64,000 bases of DNA from Haloarchaeobius salinus (GTDB taxonomy: Archaea; Halobacteriota; Halobacteria; Halobacteriales; Natrialbaceae): contig NZ_JANHAU010000004.1 of the NCBI RefSeq assembly GCF_024464185.1, forward strand, positions 1 through 64,000, in the 5' to 3' direction. Positions within the stretch are counted from its first letter, which is position 1, and each line of letters begins with the position of its first letter. A program made the translations under genes and the position numbers. The notes under the pieces were generated by a model. It did not search any database. It was not told the origin of the DNA and saw only the letters and a list, made by a program, of their open reading frames with translations. Below are positions 3,545 through 13,543 of this stretch, one piece after another.

Positions 3545-4129
3545 ATGGAACGCGACGTGTCGATTCGTGACGTGACCGCGCGAGAGTTCGTCGGCGTCAG
3601 CGAGTCTGATTCGGTGCGCAGCACCGTCCAGCTCATGTCCGAGGAGGACGTCGGGAGCGTCCTCGTCATGCGAGGGAGTACCCCGGTCGGCATCATGACC
3701 GAACGGGACGTCCTCGAGATGGTGGCGACCGGCGAGGACGCCGAATCCACCGCCGTCGCGGAGCTGATGTCCCAGCCGGTCATCACGATGGCCGCGAGTC
3801 GACCGCTCGCCGACGCCGCCGAGACGATGTCGCGCGAGGAGATCCGGAACGTCGTCGTCACCGACGACACCGACGGCGAGGAGATCGTCGGCGTGCTCAC
3901 GGAGCGGGACGTGATCGAGGCGGCGAGCACCCTCCAGGCCTCCCGGTCGCTCGACACGGAGGCGGACTTAGAGGGCGTCGCGACCGCGGCGACGGCCGTC
4001 GAAAGCGAGGCTGCGGCCCCCGGTGACGAGTACGCCACGCAGGGCGTCTGTGAACTCTGTGGGGCGTTAGCCGACTCGTTACACGACTCGAACGGTCAGT
4101 TAGTCTGTTCCGACTGCCGACAGGTGTGA
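3545..4129 (+). CDS. CBS-pair protein with C-terminal zinc ribbon
   Basis: The 194-residue protein carries two CBS motifs (about 10-65 and 75-130; signatures VLVMRGSTPVGIMTERD and IVGVLTERDVIE) that normally bind adenine nucleotides and sense energy state. An acidic linker leads to a treble-clef or ribbon tail with two CxxC pairs (CELCG and CSDC), probably binding zinc. No enzyme domain is attached, so it may be a regulator acting on a partner. The gene stands alone under its own TATA box. Confidence 0.85.
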   Translation: MERDVSIRDVTAREFVGVSESDSVRSTVQLMSEEDVGSVLVMRGSTPVGIMTERDVLEMVATGEDAESTAVAELMSQPVITMAASRPLADAAETMSREEIRNVVVTDDTDGEEIVGVLTERDVIEAASTLQASRSLDTEADLEGVATAATAVESEAAAPGDEYATQGVCELCGALADSLHDSNGQLVCSDCRQV

Positions 4130-4174: not shown

Positions 4175-4184
4175 GCAAATTTAT
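4175..4184 (+). promoter_or_regulatory. TATA box of the permuted livK-like gene
   Basis: AATTTATAAC lies about 27-30 bases upstream of the ATG at 4211, which supports that start codon and a leaderless transcript. Confidence 0.6.
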
Positions 4185-4210
4185 AACACAGGGGTAAGTA
4201 TGACGGTAGC

Positions 4211-5515
4211 ATGGCACGGAAACTGCAACGGCGCGAAGTGCTGAAAACGACCGGAATCGCTGGAACCGTCGGACTGACGGGGCTGGCAGGCTGTCTCGGT
4301 GGTGGTGGCAGTGGTGGCGGAAGCGGACCCGACATGCTCACCATCGTCGGCTATCCCGAGGACGGTATCCAGCTGTTCCGGGACTACTACAGCAGCTACG
4401 GGAACGACACCGACATCCTCATCCCGGACGGCCTCCGCGACCCGGACCTTCCGGGACAGGTCGGCAACGACATGGAGAACGTCACCGGCACCGCTCCGGC
4501 CGCCGGTGGGCCGGCCCAGTCGGCCTACGAGTCCCTGTACGAGGACGTCTACGGCGAATCGCCGGGCGTCTTCTCGTCGCAGTCCTACGACTCGACGGCG
4601 GTCGGCATCCTGGCGAACGCGGCTGCCGGCGAGAACTCCGGCACCGCCATCCGCGACCAGATGCGCAACATCGCCAACCCCGACGGGATGGAGGTGACGC
4701 CGGACAACTTCGTCGAAGGTGTCGAGGCGGCCGCAAACGGGGAAGCGGTGAACTACCAGGGTGCGTCGAGCTCGGTCAACTTCGACCAGAACGGCGACCC
4801 CGCGTCCGCAGCGTACGCGCTGTGGGAGTTCAGCGACGACGGCACCTCCACCATCCGGACCGAGAACTTCGAGGGTGCGAACCCGGACGGCGAGGGCCCG
4901 TCCGCCGACGACATGCCCGGCGGCATGGGTCGCGAGATCATGGTCGGCATCCTCCTGCCGGAGACCGGCGCGCTCGCGTCGACCGGTGAGTCGATGATCA
5001 ACGCCGCACAGATTCCGGCCCAGCAGGTCAACGAGGCCGACATCGACCTCACGGTCGACACCCAGCTCGAGGACACCGAGACGAACTCCCAGTCGGGTGT
5101 CAGCGCGGCCAACTCGCTGGTCAACGGCGGCTACCCGTACATCTGCGGGACCGCGTCGTCCGGTGTCAACGTCCCGGTCTGCCAGGAGGTCCTCATCCCG
5201 AACGAGGTCGTCGGCTGCTCGCCGTCGAGTACGGCGCTGTCGGTGACGAACCTCGACGACAACGACTACATCTTCCGGACGGCACCGTCCGACCGGCTGC
5301 AGGGCCGCGTCATGGCTCAGATTGCCTCCGAGGAGCTCGAGGCGGAGTCGTGTGCGACGCTGTACATCAACAACGACTACGGCCAGCAGCTCTCCGAGCG
5401 CTTCTCCAGCGTGTTCGAGGACGAGTTCGACGGCGAGGTCTGGCGGCAGGTCGCGTTCAACCAGGGCGAGTCCTCGTACTCCTCCGTGGTCAGCGACGCG
5501 ATGTCGGCCGAGTAA
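4211..5515 (+). CDS. branched-chain amino-acid binding lipoprotein, circularly permuted
   Basis: The 434-residue lipoprotein has a Tat-type start (LQRREVLK) and a lipobox ending at Cys28. The mature part is a LivK/Peripla_BP_6 binding protein with its lobes in reversed order. A glycine/serine linker (30-39) runs straight into the second-lobe sequence PDMLTIVGYPEDG at residue 40. This lobe continues to about residue 235 (landmarks SPGVFSSQSYDS, YQGASSSVNFD). Then at residue 239 comes what is normally the mature N terminus, MGREIMVGILLPETG, followed by the first lobe (GTASSGVNVP, SPSSTALSVT, YINNDYGQQLSE). The protein stops after AMSAE, exactly where PDMLTI would follow in ordinary relatives. 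Total length is normal for the family, so nothing is missing. It faces the livHMGF operon and is probably its binding component. Confidence 0.85.
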   Translation: MARKLQRREVLKTTGIAGTVGLTGLAGCLGGGGSGGGSGPDMLTIVGYPEDGIQLFRDYYSSYGNDTDILIPDGLRDPDLPGQVGNDMENVTGTAPAAGGPAQSAYESLYEDVYGESPGVFSSQSYDSTAVGILANAAAGENSGTAIRDQMRNIANPDGMEVTPDNFVEGVEAAANGEAVNYQGASSSVNFDQNGDPASAAYALWEFSDDGTSTIRTENFEGANPDGEGPSADDMPGGMGREIMVGILLPETGALASTGESMINAAQIPAQQVNEADIDLTVDTQLEDTETNSQSGVSAANSLVNGGYPYICGTASSGVNVPVCQEVLIPNEVVGCSPSSTALSVTNLDDNDYIFRTAPSDRLQGRVMAQIASEELEAESCATLYINNDYGQQLSERFSSVFEDEFDGEVWRQVAFNQGESSYSSVVSDAMSAE

Positions 5516-5953: not shown

Positions 5954-6868
5954 ATGCCACCCAAGAAACTTCTCGCCATGGTACTCGCCGTCGCGCTCGT
6001 CGGCAGCACCGTGGCGTACGTAGCAGCCGTCGATTCGAATCAGCTCACAGACGAACATCAGGCCAGTCAGGACCAGGACACCTCGTTCCTGCGCGTCGTG
6101 CACGCATCGCCTGACGCCCCCGCTGTCGACGTCCGCGTCGAGAACCAGACCGTGCTCTCGAACGTGAGCTTCGGGGCCGTCAGTGACTACCTCAACCTGT
6201 CCGCGGGGACCTACAACGTCTCCATCCTGTCGAACGGAACGGACACCGCCGTGTTCGAAGGCGAGGTCACCGTCGAACCGCGAACCGTGACGACGGTCGC
6301 CGCGAGCGGCGAGGTAACCCAGAGCGGAAACACGTCGTTCGAACCGGTGTTCTTCGACGACAACGCGTTCACGCCGGGCGAGAACCAGAGCGCGCTGCGC
6401 GTCGTTCACCTCTCGCCGGACGCACCGCCCGTCGACATCACGGTGGCGAACGGGAGCGTCGTGCTCGCGGAGAACGTGACCTTCCAGAACGCGTCGGACT
6501 ACGTCTCGGTTCCCGCGGGGAACTACACCGCCGAGATCAGGCCGGCGACCGCTGGGAACAACGGGAGCGTCGTCACCACGGTGGACGTGTCCCTCGAGAG
6601 TGGGCAGGCGTACTCCGCGCACGCGCTCGGCTATCTGAACCCGGCGGAGGCACCGGCGGATTCGCCGTTCCAGGTCGTCCTCACCGAAGATGCATCGGTC
6701 TCCGTGCAGTTGCCATCCGATGAAGAGATGATGGACAACGGGACTGCCACCGACGACGCACCGACCACCGACGACGCACCGACCACCGACGACGCACCGA
6801 CCACCGACGACGCACCGACCACCGACGAAGAAACGACCACCGACGACCCAGTGAGCGTGGTCGCCTAG
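5954..6868 (+). CDS. exported DUF4397-type protein with Thr/Asp repeat tail
   Basis: The 304-residue product starts with a hydrophobic signal segment (about 5-26). Two similar beta-rich domains follow, each beginning LRVVHASPDAP or LRVVHLSPDAP (about 48-125 and 138-240), the hallmark of DUF4397. Many N-x-S/T sites suggest a glycosylated surface protein. The C-terminal 45 residues are a low-complexity tail of repeated DDAPTT units ending in DDPVSVVA. Function is unknown. It lies between the livK-like gene and the convergent liv operon and may be unrelated to transport. Confidence 0.8.
   Translation: MPPKKLLAMVLAVALVGSTVAYVAAVDSNQLTDEHQASQDQDTSFLRVVHASPDAPAVDVRVENQTVLSNVSFGAVSDYLNLSAGTYNVSILSNGTDTAVFEGEVTVEPRTVTTVAASGEVTQSGNTSFEPVFFDDNAFTPGENQSALRVVHLSPDAPPVDITVANGSVVLAENVTFQNASDYVSVPAGNYTAEIRPATAGNNGSVVTTVDVSLESGQAYSAHALGYLNPAEAPADSPFQVVLTEDASVSVQLPSDEEMMDNGTATDDAPTTDDAPTTDDAPTTDDAPTTDEETTTDDPVSVVA
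6747..6831 (+). repeat. 18-bp tandem repeat in the DUF4397 gene
   Basis: About four near-identical 18-bp units (ACCGACGACGCACCGACC and phases of it) encode the DDAPTT tail. Copy number could vary between strains through slippage without breaking the frame. Confidence 0.85.
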
Positions 6869-7032: not shown

Positions 7033-7809
7033 TTACCCGCCGAGGAAGTCCTGACGGACCTGCGGGTCGTTCAGCAGGGTCGTCCCCTCGTCCTCGTAGC
7101 GGTTCTTCCCGTCCACGAGCACGTAGCCGCGGTCACAGCGCCGGAGTGCCTCCTTCGCGTTCTGCTCGACCATCAGCACTGCCGTCCCGGCGTCGTTGAT
7201 GGCGTCGATGCGGTCGAACATGTCCGCGACGAGGTCCGGTGCGAGCCCGGCAGACGGCTCGTCGAGAAGCAGGAGGTCCGGGTCGAGCATGAGCGCCCGG
7301 CCCATCGCGAGCATCTGCTGCTGTCCGCCCGACAGCGTCCCGGCCTTCTGCGTCTGTCGCTCCTTCAGGATGGGGAACCGCTCCCACACCTCGTTCAGCG
7401 CCTCCTGTGGCACCTCGTCGAGGATGTACGCACCCATCTCGAGGTTCTCACGGACCGACAGCGAGCTGAACACGTTGTCGTTCTGTGGCACGTAGCCGAG
7501 GCCGAGATGGATGATGTCCTCGGGGCGCATCGCCGTGATGTCCTCGTCGTCGAAGGACACCGTTCCGCCCATGTGGGCCGTCAGGCCGAAGACGGACTTC
7601 ATCACCGTCGACTTGCCGGCCCCGTTCGGGCCGACGATGGTGACGTACTCCTCGTCGTTGACGTCGAGGTCGACGTCGGTCAGGATCTGGAGGTCACCGT
7701 AGCCGGCGTCCAGGTCGCGCACCGAGAGTAGGCTATCCTCGTAGAGGTTGACGTTCTGAGCGGCACTCGTGGCCGCCCCGCCGTCGGTGGCCGCGTCGTC
7801 GGGACTCAT
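7033..7809 (-). CDS. livF: branched-chain amino-acid ABC transporter ATPase LivF
   Basis: The 258-residue ATPase has Walker A GPNGAGKST, signature LSGGQQQML, Walker B LLLLDEPSAGL and the switch histidine in the form MVEQNAKEAL typical of LivF. It hydrolyses ATP to drive uptake of branched-chain amino acids or related compounds together with LivG. Its ATG overlaps the livG stop by four bases, so it is the last gene of the livH-M-G-F operon. Confidence 0.93.
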   Translation of the reverse strand: MSPDDAATDGGAATSAAQNVNLYEDSLLSVRDLDAGYGDLQILTDVDLDVNDEEYVTIVGPNGAGKSTVMKSVFGLTAHMGGTVSFDDEDITAMRPEDIIHLGLGYVPQNDNVFSSLSVRENLEMGAYILDEVPQEALNEVWERFPILKERQTQKAGTLSGGQQQMLAMGRALMLDPDLLLLDEPSAGLAPDLVADMFDRIDAINDAGTAVLMVEQNAKEALRRCDRGYVLVDGKNRYEDEGTTLLNDPQVRQDFLGG

Positions 7810-8672
7810 ACCTCACCTCCGAGGTAGGCCTCGATGACGTCTTCGTTGTTCCGTACCTCCTCCGGCGTCCCCTCGGTGAGGATGCGGCCCTGGTGCATGA
7901 CGATGACTTTCTCGCAGTTCTGCATGATGAGGTCCATGTCGTGTTCGACGATGAGGAACGTGTAGCCCTGGTCCCTGAGTTCGTGGATGTGTTCGAGCAG
8001 GCGCTCCTCCAGCGACGGGTTGACGCCGGCGAACGGCTCGTCCAGCAGGAGCATCTGCGGGTCGGTCAGCAACGCGCGCGCCAGCTCCAGCAGCTTCCGC
8101 TGCCCACCGGAGAGGTTCTCCGCGTACTCGTTCGCGAGGTGGTCGATGTCGAAGAACTCCAGGGTCTCCCACGCGCGTTCGAGGATATCCTGCTCCTGCT
8201 CCTTCACTTCGTTCCGGGCGTAGGGCAGGACCGAGCGCCAGAGCGCCTCGCCGCGCTGGTGCTTCGGCGCGACCATCATGTTCTCCAGGACGGTCATCTC
8301 GCCGAGCTCGCGGGCGATCTGGAACGTCCGGACGAGGCCGCGGTCCGCGACCTCGTACGGTTCGAGCCCGGTGATGTCCTGTCCGTTGAACTCGACGCTG
8401 CCGGCGTCGGGCTTGTGGGTGCCGGTGATGCAGTTGAACGTGGTTGACTTCCCGGCCCCGTTCGGGCCGATGAGGCCGGTCATGCTGCCCTTCTCGATGT
8501 CGAACTCGACACCGTCGACGGCCGTGATACCGCCGAAGTGCTTCTCGAGCCCGCGGACCTTCAGCGGTATCTCTGCGGTCTCGCTGGCCCCTGAGAGCGT
8601 GTTCAGTGACCGGTCATCGGCCTCGGTCTGCCCTGCGGCGGTCGCGTCGGAGGTCTCGGACTCGCTACTCAT
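7806..8672 (-). CDS. livG: branched-chain amino-acid ABC transporter ATPase LivG
   Basis: The 288-residue ATPase has Walker A GPNGAGKST, signature LSGGQRKLLELA, Walker B MLLLDEPFAGV and VEHDMDLI, the usual LivG form. The start at 8672 (MSSESETSDA) is preferred because it overlaps the end of livM by eight bases; a longer frame runs into livM. The N-terminal 45 residues form an acidic haloarchaeal extension before the ATPase fold. Confidence 0.93.
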   Translation of the reverse strand: MSSESETSDATAAGQTEADDRSLNTLSGASETAEIPLKVRGLEKHFGGITAVDGVEFDIEKGSMTGLIGPNGAGKSTTFNCITGTHKPDAGSVEFNGQDITGLEPYEVADRGLVRTFQIARELGEMTVLENMMVAPKHQRGEALWRSVLPYARNEVKEQEQDILERAWETLEFFDIDHLANEYAENLSGGQRKLLELARALLTDPQMLLLDEPFAGVNPSLEERLLEHIHELRDQGYTFLIVEHDMDLIMQNCEKVIVMHQGRILTEGTPEEVRNNEDVIEAYLGGEV

Positions 8673-10083
8673 CCGTCTCACCTCCGTCGGTCGCGACGGT
8701 GTCACCGCCACCCGAGCGCTTGATCGGCCGGGTCAGCGGGATGCTGGACGCCGGTTCCTTGCGGTGGCCGAGCATCCCGTCCGGCCGCCGGTGCATCAGT
8801 ACGATGAGCACGACGCCCATCAGGAACAGCTGGAGCTGCCTGATGCTGTCGAGCGTGAAGAGGAAGAACGGGACGACGTCCCCGCTCGTGATCGGGGCCA
8901 TCGCCTGGCCGAAGCTCGACGGTGCCTCGGGGTTACCGAGCGCCGTCTCGATGACGTTCTTGAAGTACCGCGGTCCCTGGAACAGGAACGCCGCGAACAC
9001 TGCACCGCCCATGACGCTACCGGTGTTCGACCCGGCACCACCGATGATGAGCGCGATCCAGATGTAGAACGTGATGCGCGGCCGGAACGTGTTCGGCGTG
9101 ACCGAACCCTGCGTCCCGAACCAGAGGATGCCGACCAGCCCCATCAGGGCACAGCCGACGACGAACGACTTGATCTTGAACATGTTCGTGTTCTTCCCGA
9201 GTGCGTTCGTCACGTCCTCGTCCTCGCGGATGGCCTTGAGAACCCGACCGAACGGGGAGTTCCCCGTCCGGCGGATGAGGACGTAGAACCCGCCGAGGAT
9301 GAGCAGCAGGACGGCCGAGTACGCGAAGTTGTCGACGACCGGCTTGGGGTTGTTCGGGATGTAGTTCGCCACGAAGTCGACCACGATACCGAGGTACACC
9401 TCGTTCCACAGCCACCCCTGTTCGCCGAACACGAGGTCGAACGGTGCGCTGAGTGCGCGTATCAGGCTTTCGAGGGGGTCCCGGTAGTCGAGGATGACCC
9501 CGTCACCGCCACCGAGACCGACGCGGTAGCCGGCGATGTCGTGGCCGCTCAGCGAGTCCGACAGCAGCGCGAACCGGACGATCTCTGAGAGTGCGATGGT
9601 GACGATTGCGAGGTAGTCCGCGCGCAACCGGAGCGCCGGGAGCGCGGCGATGAGCCCGAGCAGCCCGGCCGCGACCATCCCGCCGATGATACCGATCCAC
9701 AGCGGAAGGCCGAACCCACCGATCTCCGCCGCGCTCGTCCCGGAGCCGAACACCGGCTTCGAGAGGATACCGGTCACGTAGACACCGGTCGCCATGAACC
9801 CGACGATACCGATGTTGAACAGCCCCGTGTATCCCCAGTGCAGGTTCAACGCGAGCGAGGCCATGGCGAAGACGGCGATCCAGAACGTCAACTGGCCGAT
9901 CTGGTTCATCAGCCCCCGGAACGGGAAGCCGATGAACAGTCCGGCGAGCAGGTAGATGGCGTAGACGCCGACGAGCAGCGTCAGCAGCATCAACCCGTCG
10001 TTCCGGAAGTCGATGCCCATCACTACCGCACGCTGTTCCTCCTCACTTTGCCCGTACCCATCGCCTGATTCGTCGTCGCTCAT
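8665..10083 (-). CDS. livM: branched-chain amino-acid ABC transporter permease LivM
   Basis: The 472-residue protein has an acidic leader and about ten membrane segments. LivM landmarks are LHWGYTGLFNIGIVGFMA, the conserved ALPALRLRADYLAIVT and the long loop FGRVLKAIREDEDVTNALG that contacts the ATPases. The start at 10083 overlaps the livH stop (ATGA). A poorly conserved loop of about 90 residues after LSGHDIAGYRVG makes it longer than bacterial LivM. The C-terminal tail is cytoplasmic and ends in GGETDE. Confidence 0.92.
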   Translation of the reverse strand: MSDDESGDGYGQSEEEQRAVVMGIDFRNDGLMLLTLLVGVYAIYLLAGLFIGFPFRGLMNQIGQLTFWIAVFAMASLALNLHWGYTGLFNIGIVGFMATGVYVTGILSKPVFGSGTSAAEIGGFGLPLWIGIIGGMVAAGLLGLIAALPALRLRADYLAIVTIALSEIVRFALLSDSLSGHDIAGYRVGLGGGDGVILDYRDPLESLIRALSAPFDLVFGEQGWLWNEVYLGIVVDFVANYIPNNPKPVVDNFAYSAVLLLILGGFYVLIRRTGNSPFGRVLKAIREDEDVTNALGKNTNMFKIKSFVVGCALMGLVGILWFGTQGSVTPNTFRPRITFYIWIALIIGGAGSNTGSVMGGAVFAAFLFQGPRYFKNVIETALGNPEAPSSFGQAMAPITSGDVVPFFLFTLDSIRQLQLFLMGVVLIVLMHRRPDGMLGHRKEPASSIPLTRPIKRSGGGDTVATDGGETDE

Positions 10084-11198
10084 GCTGTAGACCTCCCTGA
10101 GAAGATGCCCTGGGGACGTACCACCAGGACGAGGATCATCACGGCGAACGCCGCCGCGCGGGCGAAGCCGGACGGGATCCAGATCACCGCCGTCGAAGCG
10201 GTGACTCCGATGATCAGGCCGCCCGCGATTGCGCCGTACACCGAGCCGATGCCGCCGAGGATGACTGCCGCGAAGATGAGCAGCAGCAGCAGCCAACCGT
10301 CGTTCCAGCTGAGCGTACCCTTCCAGAGCACGAACATGAAGCCGGAGACGCCGGTCAGCCCGCCGCCGATTATCCACGTCGCGCGGATGACGCGCTCGGT
10401 CGCGATACCGGTGATGCGTGCCAGCGACTCGTCGTCGGACATCGCCCGCATCGCCTTCCCCAGCTTCGTCCGCTGGAGCAGGATGTGGACGCCGAGCATC
10501 AGCCCACCGGCGACGATGACGAGCATCGCGTCGTGTGCGGTGAGCGACACCGTCCCGTCGATGAAGTAGGGCCGGATGCCGGGGAGGGTCCCGGTGTTGG
10601 TCGTCCCCCGGGTGCCCGAGTCGAAGACGAACTGGATGAGGTACCGCAGCGCGAACGCGACACCGACGCTCGTGATGAGCAGCGGAATCCCGCCCGAGCC
10701 GCGTATCGGTTTGAAGATTAGCTTGTCGATGGCGAGCGCGAGCACGATGGTGAACAGGCCCGAGACGATCAGGCCGGCGATCACGGCCAGTGGCGTCTGT
10801 ACGGCGTTGATGCCCAGCGCCCCGCCGAACACCGAGCCGCCGGCACCCACCAGTGCCAGCGAGCCGATGTTCGCCGAGGAGCCGAAGCCACCGGCGATGA
10901 TGTACGTCGTCGCCCAGCCCGAGAACGCCCCTGCTGTGATGTAATCACCGTGGGCGAAGTTCGCGAAGTTCAGAATGCTGTACGTCATCGAGAGCCCGAT
11001 ACCCGCCAGTCCGATGACGAGCCCCCGGAACAGGCCGTCGAGGACCAGGTTCAACACCCGGGCGATGGTGATGTCACCGACCGCGAGCTGTCTGAAGAGG
11101 TCGAGAACGAGCAGTACTGCGATGGCCCCCAGCACTACCGTCATCGGCTTCTCGACCAGAAGGTTCCGGCCTCTATCGTACGTGCTTGATTCACCCAT
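10080..11198 (-). CDS. livH: branched-chain amino-acid ABC transporter permease LivH
   Basis: The 372-residue permease has about nine membrane segments and the LivH signature GIGLSMTYSILNFANFAHGD near residue 60, plus the ATPase-contact loop LGKAMRAMSDDESLARITGI. It is the first gene of the liv operon. No binding-protein gene sits inside the operon; the only candidate nearby is the permuted livK-like gene at 4.2 kb. An AT-rich element (minus strand GATTTATC near 11236) is the likely promoter. Confidence 0.92.
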   Translation of the reverse strand: MGESSTYDRGRNLLVEKPMTVVLGAIAVLLVLDLFRQLAVGDITIARVLNLVLDGLFRGLVIGLAGIGLSMTYSILNFANFAHGDYITAGAFSGWATTYIIAGGFGSSANIGSLALVGAGGSVFGGALGINAVQTPLAVIAGLIVSGLFTIVLALAIDKLIFKPIRGSGGIPLLITSVGVAFALRYLIQFVFDSGTRGTTNTGTLPGIRPYFIDGTVSLTAHDAMLVIVAGGLMLGVHILLQRTKLGKAMRAMSDDESLARITGIATERVIRATWIIGGGLTGVSGFMFVLWKGTLSWNDGWLLLLLIFAAVILGGIGSVYGAIAGGLIIGVTASTAVIWIPSGFARAAAFAVMILVLVVRPQGIFSGRSTA

Positions 11199-13149: not shown

Positions 13150-13223
13150 GCCAAGGGAGCATGGGCGGTGCATGCACTCGACTTGTAATCGAGACTTCGT
13201 GGGTTCAAATCCCACCCTTGGCT
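13150..13223 (+). tRNA. tRNA-Thr (anticodon TGT)
   Basis: A full cloverleaf can be drawn: acceptor stem GCCAAGG/CCTTGGC, D stem GCAT/ATGC, anticodon stem CTCGA/TCGAG with loop CTTGTAA, variable loop ACTTC, T stem GTGGG/CCCAC with loop TTCAAAT, and discriminator T as in archaeal tRNA-Thr. There is no intron and no encoded CCA. Positions 8 and 14 are both G, where U and A are almost universal. Confidence 0.85.
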
Positions 13224-13253
13224 TCCTGCTGCGAACGAAGTGAGCAGCGGAAG
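13222..13253 (+). other. hairpin just after tRNA-Thr
   Basis: CTTCCTGCT at 13222-13230 pairs with AGCA plus GGAAG within 13243-13253, leaving a 2-base bulge and a 12-base loop. It begins at the last bases of the tRNA and may serve 3' processing or termination. Confidence 0.45.
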
Positions 13254-13272
13254 CCACAGGTGTGGATTTGAA

Positions 13273-13452
13273 CCAGGGAGCGGAACGAAGTGCAGCGACC
13301 GTGGTTCAAATCCCACCCGACGAACCCCTTCACCGACAGCACGGACACGACCAGGGAGCGGAACGAAGTGCAGCGACCGTGGTTCAAATCCCACCCGACG
13401 AACCCCTTCACCGACAGCACGGACACGACCAGGGAGCGGAACGAAGTGCAGC
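13273..13452 (+). repeat. 78-bp tandem repeat carrying tRNA T-arm copies
   Basis: Two identical 78-bp units begin at 13273 and 13351, with a 24-base start of a third at 13429. Each full unit contains GTGGTTCAAATCCCACCC (13301 and 13379), which matches the T arm and start of the 3' acceptor strand of the upstream tRNA-Thr except for one missing G. No frame with haloarchaeal composition crosses the region. The short stretch 13453-13543 before aconitase holds nothing further except the promoter area. Confidence 0.85.
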
Positions 13453-13543
13453 AACGGTGAGTCACCCTCGACGTCGCCCGATCGGTCGTCGGTGTCAGCG
13501 ATTCGGGGGACGATTCAAGTGATGCGTTATCGTATCTTGAGGT

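Follow-up and report, generated by a model that had tools for sequence, protein, structure and literature searches.

A naturally circularly permuted LivK-type binding protein in Halobacteriales and its probable recurrent origin at one locus

Introduction

Most circular permutants are known as single ancient pairs of low sequence identity, and their origin and retention are hard to study. The gene at 4211-5515 of the window (the whole stretch of Haloarchaeobius salinus DNA analysed here, 64,000 nucleotides) raises the question of whether a LivK-type binding protein with its halves in reversed order is a natural, intact permutant, and how often such a chain order has arisen. Here, half A and half B denote the native first and second halves. 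Ordinary members of the family are designated N (A-B), the order of the window protein is P1 (B-linker-A), and a second permuted order is P2.

Results

Layout of the gene and protein

The gene consists of 434 codons running uninterrupted from ATG to TAA, without a frameshift (Table 1). An RREVL motif lies in the Tat signal, and the lipobox LAGC supplies Cys28. With an RRx hydrophobic-hydrophobic motif (QRREVL) and this lipobox Cys, the window protein is predicted to be a haloarchaeal Tat lipoprotein, in keeping with the earlier note, which took it to be exported with the signal kept in front. Pfam TAT_signal gives weak matches in N and P2 relatives. Upstream, the spacing of the TATA-like element fits a leaderless transcript, marking it as a putative promoter.

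The second-half sequence had been placed at residue 40, behind the lipobox and a Gly/Ser stretch, and the native first half at residue 239. The layout read from the sequence agrees with the former position, and the PF13458 and 3td9 matches, beginning at aa 243 and 240, bear out the latter. The further claim that nothing was lost or doubled holds for the chain as such, which is intact and of full length, but about 16 residues of linker have been gained, for which ordinary (N) members have no counterpart.

Table 1 Features of the permuted gene, its protein and the surrounding locus (positions in the window).
Feature	Position	Strand	Evidence
Permuted (P1) LivK-type substrate-binding lipoprotein, 434 aa	4211..5515	+	Pfam PF13458 and PDB LivK matches, halves reversed
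Tat signal peptide, aa 1-27 (QRREVLKTTG; MARKLQRREVLKTTGIAGTVGLTGLAG), ends in lipobox LAG/C	4211..4291	+	Sequence read-out
Cys28 and Gly/Ser tether, aa 28-39	4292..4327	+	Read-out; nearly all P1 relatives share the layout
Half B, aa 40-222, native second half, begins PDMLTIVGYPEDG	4328..4876	+	PDB and rotated alignments, B-only tree
New linker ANPDGEGPSADDMPGG, aa 223-238, bridges old C-terminus and old N-terminus	4877..4924	+	Conserved across the main P1/P2 clade; no counterpart in N relatives
Half A, aa 239-434, native first half, ends SDAMSAE	4925..5512	+	Pfam and PDB matches, rotated alignment, A-only tree
Archaeal TATA-box-like AAATTTATAA, about 28 nt 5' of ATG	4177..4186	+	Read directly from sequence
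CBS-domain protein, conserved upstream neighbour, synteny marker	3545..4129	+	Pfam CBS
DUF4397 protein between binding protein and livF	5954..6868	+	Pfam DUF4397
livF-type ABC ATPase	7033..7809	-	Pfam ABC_tran; NCBIfam LivF best match, below cut-off
livG-type ABC ATPase (predicted start)	7806..8672	-	ORF; order conserved in relatives
livM-type permease (predicted start)	8665..10083	-	NCBIfam LivM best match, below cut-off
livH-type permease	10080..11198	-	Pfam BPD_transp_2

Rotation restores a colinear alignment

PF13458 matches aa 243-433 of the window protein at profile positions 2-189, and the unrotated protein matches the profile in two stretches (96.7 bits, 2.8e-27). After rotation, in which aa 239-434 are followed by aa 40-222, these merge into one stretch covering profile positions 2-315 of 343 (114.5 bits, 1.1e-32). 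The same pattern is seen with PDB 3td9 (LivK TM1135, Thermotoga), where query residues 240-432 align to chain residues 14-202 and query residues 39-159 to chain residues 204-327, in reversed order; the rotated sequence forms a single colinear stretch over chain residues 15-327 (E 1.8e-19 vs 4e-13 unrotated). At the seam, VSDAMSAE/PDMLTIVGYP pairs with LSVAMSFNPDAIYITGYY of 3td9 without a gap, in agreement with the earlier observation that the chain stops at AMSAE, just before the PDMLTI of ordinary members. The window protein is thus homologous to Peripla_BP_6 over the whole family profile but runs B-linker-A rather than in the canonical A-then-B order.

A full-length colinear alignment restored by rotation, together with homologues in both orders, is what characterizes a natural permutant. 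These comparisons confirm, at the level of sequence, that the window protein is a natural, intact circular permutant of the LivK (Peripla_BP_6) family, as the earlier note had proposed. Domain profiles report the permuted gene as a fragmentary match, a warning for annotation.

Cut position and predicted fold

The AlphaFold model built with 23 P1 sequences reaches a pLDDT of 81 and a pTM of 0.82, with disorder limited to the first 37 residues; the halves are thus predicted to close into one fold. Half A ends in a helix (424-431) and half B opens with a strand (42-46), so that in the model the P1 cut is a helix-to-strand loop. A Foldseek search with the model returns leucine-binding proteins as top matches, aligned over about 195 of 345 residues (TMt 0.46-0.49); an alignment of only about half the length is expected, since the aligner follows chain order and the protein is a permutant.

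Rotated residues 5-255 align to residues 3-251 of the E. coli Leu-binding protein, which places the cut near its residue 193 (interpolated). With lobe borders of that protein which we take to be 1-120 and 250-329 for lobe 1 and 121-249 and 330-346 for lobe 2, the P1 cut would lie inside lobe 2. Each half therefore contributes to both lobes, and the initial description of the halves as swapped lobes is inexact, the seam falling within the C-lobe. By the topology, lobe 2 carries the lipid tether in P1, and lobe 1 carries it in N and P2.

Distribution and the three chain orders

In an even sampling of the order Halobacteriales, full-length colinear matches in P1 order occur in 160 of 392 genomes, which represent 36 of 95 genera; G366, counted among these genomes, turned out to be P2. 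Named P1 hosts are Haloarchaeobius, Halorubellus, Halorubrum, Halorussus, Halobellus, Halostella, Haloferax and Haloglomus. Full-length colinear P1 relatives show 92-95% identity within the genus, 82-86% in another genus and about 50-80% across many genera. Among 247 genomes of the phylum outside Halobacteriales, none gave a match to the permuted form at E <= 1e-40. The dN/dS ratio is 0.07-0.27 among the closest species, and the P1 gene, judged by these ratios, is under purifying selection. The permutant had initially been treated as a singular case; it is instead widespread and recurrent, and a second permuted order exists.

Among 170 distinct homologues, 61 are N, 104 are P1 and five are P2. 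N members end directly after half B, without a linker remnant. P2 proteins run from the signal to half A from about residue 38-44, then half B, the linker and finally residues 1 to about 36-43 of half A, so that the chain opens within half A, after its first helix. The P2 hosts are G015 and G016 (L036, L037) and the MAGs L061, L062 and L063; the loci are L152:9311-10492, L153:9270-10451, L061, L062 and L063/L228. The P2 AlphaFold model, made from just five sequences, has a pLDDT of 37. A frameshifted P1 pseudogene at L168:8800-9600 (G041), with no liv operon nearby, is cut short behind the first half-A helix, near the P2 cut.

Locus and neighbours

As noted before, the P1 gene faces the liv operon, livFGMH being convergent with it. 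In the 19-20 kb loci examined, the binding-protein gene is convergent with livF-livG-livM-livH with few exceptions, no liv genes being found near L045, L168, L250, L252, L261 and L268. The gene at 4211-5515 shares this linkage to livHMGF. A CBS-domain gene lies upstream at many loci, and a phosphoglycerate kinase (pgk) gene, named from its sequence without a profile scan, is often located beyond livH. By this comparison of gene neighbourhoods, N, P1 and P2 are shown to occupy one orthologous locus.

Within the genus of the window, two genomes (G001 and G005; L150, L151) carry N at this locus and four (G000, G002-G004) carry P1. The N cassette of L150/L151 has diverged LivH (53-56% identity) and LivM (45-46%), so that the whole liv cassette, beyond the binding protein, differs strongly between species. 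Cassette exchange between lineages at this locus is likely, because the N cassette brings its own diverged LivH and LivM.

Tandem P1 pairs stand beside one livFGMH operon at L169:8380-11192 and also at L185, L186 and L187. Their linkers have diverged, and in L169 and L185 the livF-proximal copy has no clear lipobox Cys. The DUF4397 neighbour was seen only at L043, L159, L161 and L162 among the relatives' loci and is probably not part of the system. The C-terminal part of this protein holds an acidic repeat of TTDDAP type (6747-6847; 18 bp, 5.6 copies). Further along the window, at 13150-13459, tRNA-Thr(tgt) is followed by a 78-bp repeat (2.4 copies) with sequence like a tRNA 3' end (GTGGTTCAAATCCCACC), an arrangement similar to an integration site or to a tRNA end that has been duplicated.

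Number of origins

All proteins were placed in a common A-then-B register before the binding-protein (SBP) tree was built. The tree contains a main permuted clade of 29 rows (support 99/89) that holds P1 and three separate P2 lineages, and the P1 groups b (L196, L199, L201), c (L194, L197) and d (L195, L198, L206) lie among N forms. The split is not an effect of chimeras between N and P1 halves, an explanation ruled out because the A-only and B-only trees repeat the grouping. In the LivHMGF tree, in which the SBP alignment plays no part, group b is nested within N forms (100/99), and c and d group with an N locus (100/99).

In AU tests, whose p-values are somewhat weakened by the groups having been named after the tree was seen, uniting all permuted forms as one clade was rejected (p 0.0006), as were the union of group b with the main clade (p 0.0003), of c/d with the main clade (p 0.011) and of b with c/d (p 0.0003). 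The union of c and d was not rejected (p 0.25), and these groups may be one lineage. All P2 forms as one clade (p 5.5e-6) and the union of L061 with L062/L063 (p 0.0001) were likewise rejected. With single P1 and P2 clades both rejected, at least three lineages of P1, and three of P2, are required if N is ancestral. More weight is given to the concordance of four data sets than to the AU p-values.

The linker sequences fit separate origins. The main clade and all P2 proteins have GxGPSADxxPGG or a variant of it. The linkers DENATAADPVGVDSFE of group b and PQPEPAGSGSGAD of group d show no relation to the main GPSADxxPGG; in group c, the L194 linker has a partial resemblance to it.

Discussion

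Proposed function and route of permutation

The P1 gene very probably encodes the lipid-anchored binding protein that serves the neighbouring ABC importer of Liv type (HAAT family), circularly permuted and refolding into a two-lobe clamp. Running as signal, Gly tether, half B, new linker and half A, the chain would still yield the ordinary clamp, since it is opened at a helix-to-strand loop and its original termini are connected by a flexible linker. A small amino-acid-like ligand would presumably be bound between the lobes and then passed to LivHM. The SPSST and GYPE motifs, located in different halves, are invariant or nearly so and align with Leu-bound 4n0q. A role in binding and transport is predicted from such sequence comparisons; in NCBIfam, neither the binding protein nor the permeases reach the cut-offs, and urea permease models score about equally for the permeases (LivH).

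Tandem duplication and trimming is the usual model for circular permutation (PMC2213659), and each permutation event at this locus may have followed that route. The earlier note had suggested as much, and the route stays a suggestion: among about 80 large loci, no fused intermediates or leftover half-genes were found beside the locus. The same loci contain true tandem copies at L169 and a separate ordinary paralogue at L052. No excess of microhomology was seen between the A/B junction and the Gly-rich tether, a shared word of at least 9 occurring in 5%, vs 3.5% of controls.

Alternative explanations

A normal gene mis-joined in the contig, or an annotation fault, would produce the same reading of the window, yet this is hardly conceivable: the open reading frame is single and uninterrupted, and the order recurs with a homologous linker in independently assembled genomes from separate projects, including named assemblies of many genera, on which grounds assembly error was rejected. 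Both refutations proposed at the outset, a normal order of the gene and a structure prediction whose halves do not close, failed: independent genomes of many genera have the reversed order, and the model closes into one fold. It is very improbable that the permuted gene is a drifting, non-functional by-product while the transporter uses another binding protein. Such a situation would be in line with the ordinary-order LivK paralogues found elsewhere in the window's genome and with the broken P1 gene of L168, in a region that has also lost liv. Against it stand the dN/dS values and the linkage to livFGMH, which is fixed across families; the remaining paralogues are located at other places, and several of them stand next to LivH copies of their own that are more distant.

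The number of origins is the harder point. In all P1 groups half B starts at the same place, mostly at a PD dipeptide, and this identical seam is most simply explained by common origin, against which the trees speak. The main rival for the shared seam is accordingly that P1 arose once, early, and that the N forms standing between P1 groups have returned to the canonical order. Minimum-change counts do not separate gain from loss, but reversal would need a second permutation that deleted the linker tracelessly, and N proteins end right after half B with no relic. The differing b and d linkers also tell against a single origin, and both the outgroup paralogues and the LivK proteins from outside haloarchaea run in N order, which leaves reversion unlikely. 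The seam is more likely shared through structural tolerance, because the P1 and P2 openings are both helix-to-strand loops; in alpha/beta lobes such loops lie away from the ligand cleft. We consider it probable that one orthologous gene was permuted at least three separate times at the same seam and that permuted genes were opened anew at a second loop on three further occasions, with chain order as an evolving character. A different matter is whether the permutation was adaptive, shifting the lipid anchor off lobe 1 and onto lobe 2 (in P2, back onto lobe 1) and altering how the clamp is presented to LivHM. This is a tentative idea: the shift of the tether follows from topology, tethering was put forward by Brautigam et al. 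as a reason why Treponema MglB-2 is permuted (PMC4990184), and LivH and LivM diverge together with the binding protein, but such co-divergence is expected for any linked cassette and neutral tolerance accounts for the data equally.

Relation to known systems

The LivK/LivJ Leu/Ile/Val-binding proteins (PF13458; 3td9, 4n0q, 1usg) are homologous to both halves of the window protein and share the liv operon as partner; the window protein differs in its order, reversed about the A/B junction, and in the extra linker between the old termini. The glycine-betaine- and molybdate-binding proteins and CysB have the Type II fold. They are related to one another by circular permutation (CPSARST, PMC2395249), an instance of permutation within binding-protein-like folds, as in the window protein; they differ in having less than 24% identity, in being detected by structure only and in offering no permuted orthologues at one locus (PMC2395249). 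Engineered ribose-binding protein constructs (7QSP, 7QSQ; PMC9815098) likewise cut and permute a type I sequence, but these are artificial permuted halves, not natural full-length genes.

The closest precedent is MglB-2 of T. pallidum (Tp0684, 5JX2), a natural circularly permuted glucose-binding protein for which 'Type Ic' was proposed and tethering considered a possible cause of the permutation (PMC4990184). Like the window protein, MglB-2 is a natural permutant among the lipid-tethered type I binding proteins of ABC importers, with extra sequence bridging the old termini (PMC4990184). It is proof that the class functions in permuted form. The differences are that it belongs to the sugar-binding MglB family of spirochaetes and Gram-positives, that it is cut elsewhere, strands 1-3 of the N-lobe having moved to the C-terminus, that its permuted parts have low identity to ordinary relatives, and that repeated origin is not reported in the passages considered (PMC4990184). 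The window protein therefore falls outside the Type Ic (TpMglB-2) group, as a LivK-family member cut in a helix-strand loop of lobe 2. No report of a permuted LivK, of a haloarchaeal permuted binding protein or of recurrent permutation at one locus was found in the open-access literature. The earlier statement that no permuted LivK had been described stands to that extent, with the qualification that a permuted type I protein, MglB-2, is already on record (PMC4990184).

Significance

Recurrence of the same seam may mean that the clamp tolerates ends only at certain loops off the cleft, or that selection favours a shift of the tether from one lobe to the other. Orthologues in ordinary, permuted and twice-permuted form (about 50-80% identity) share a locus and a transporter within one family, and ordinary and permuted orthologues occur even within one genus. 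With close orthologues of differing order at one locus, folding, tethering and the route of permutation become directly testable.
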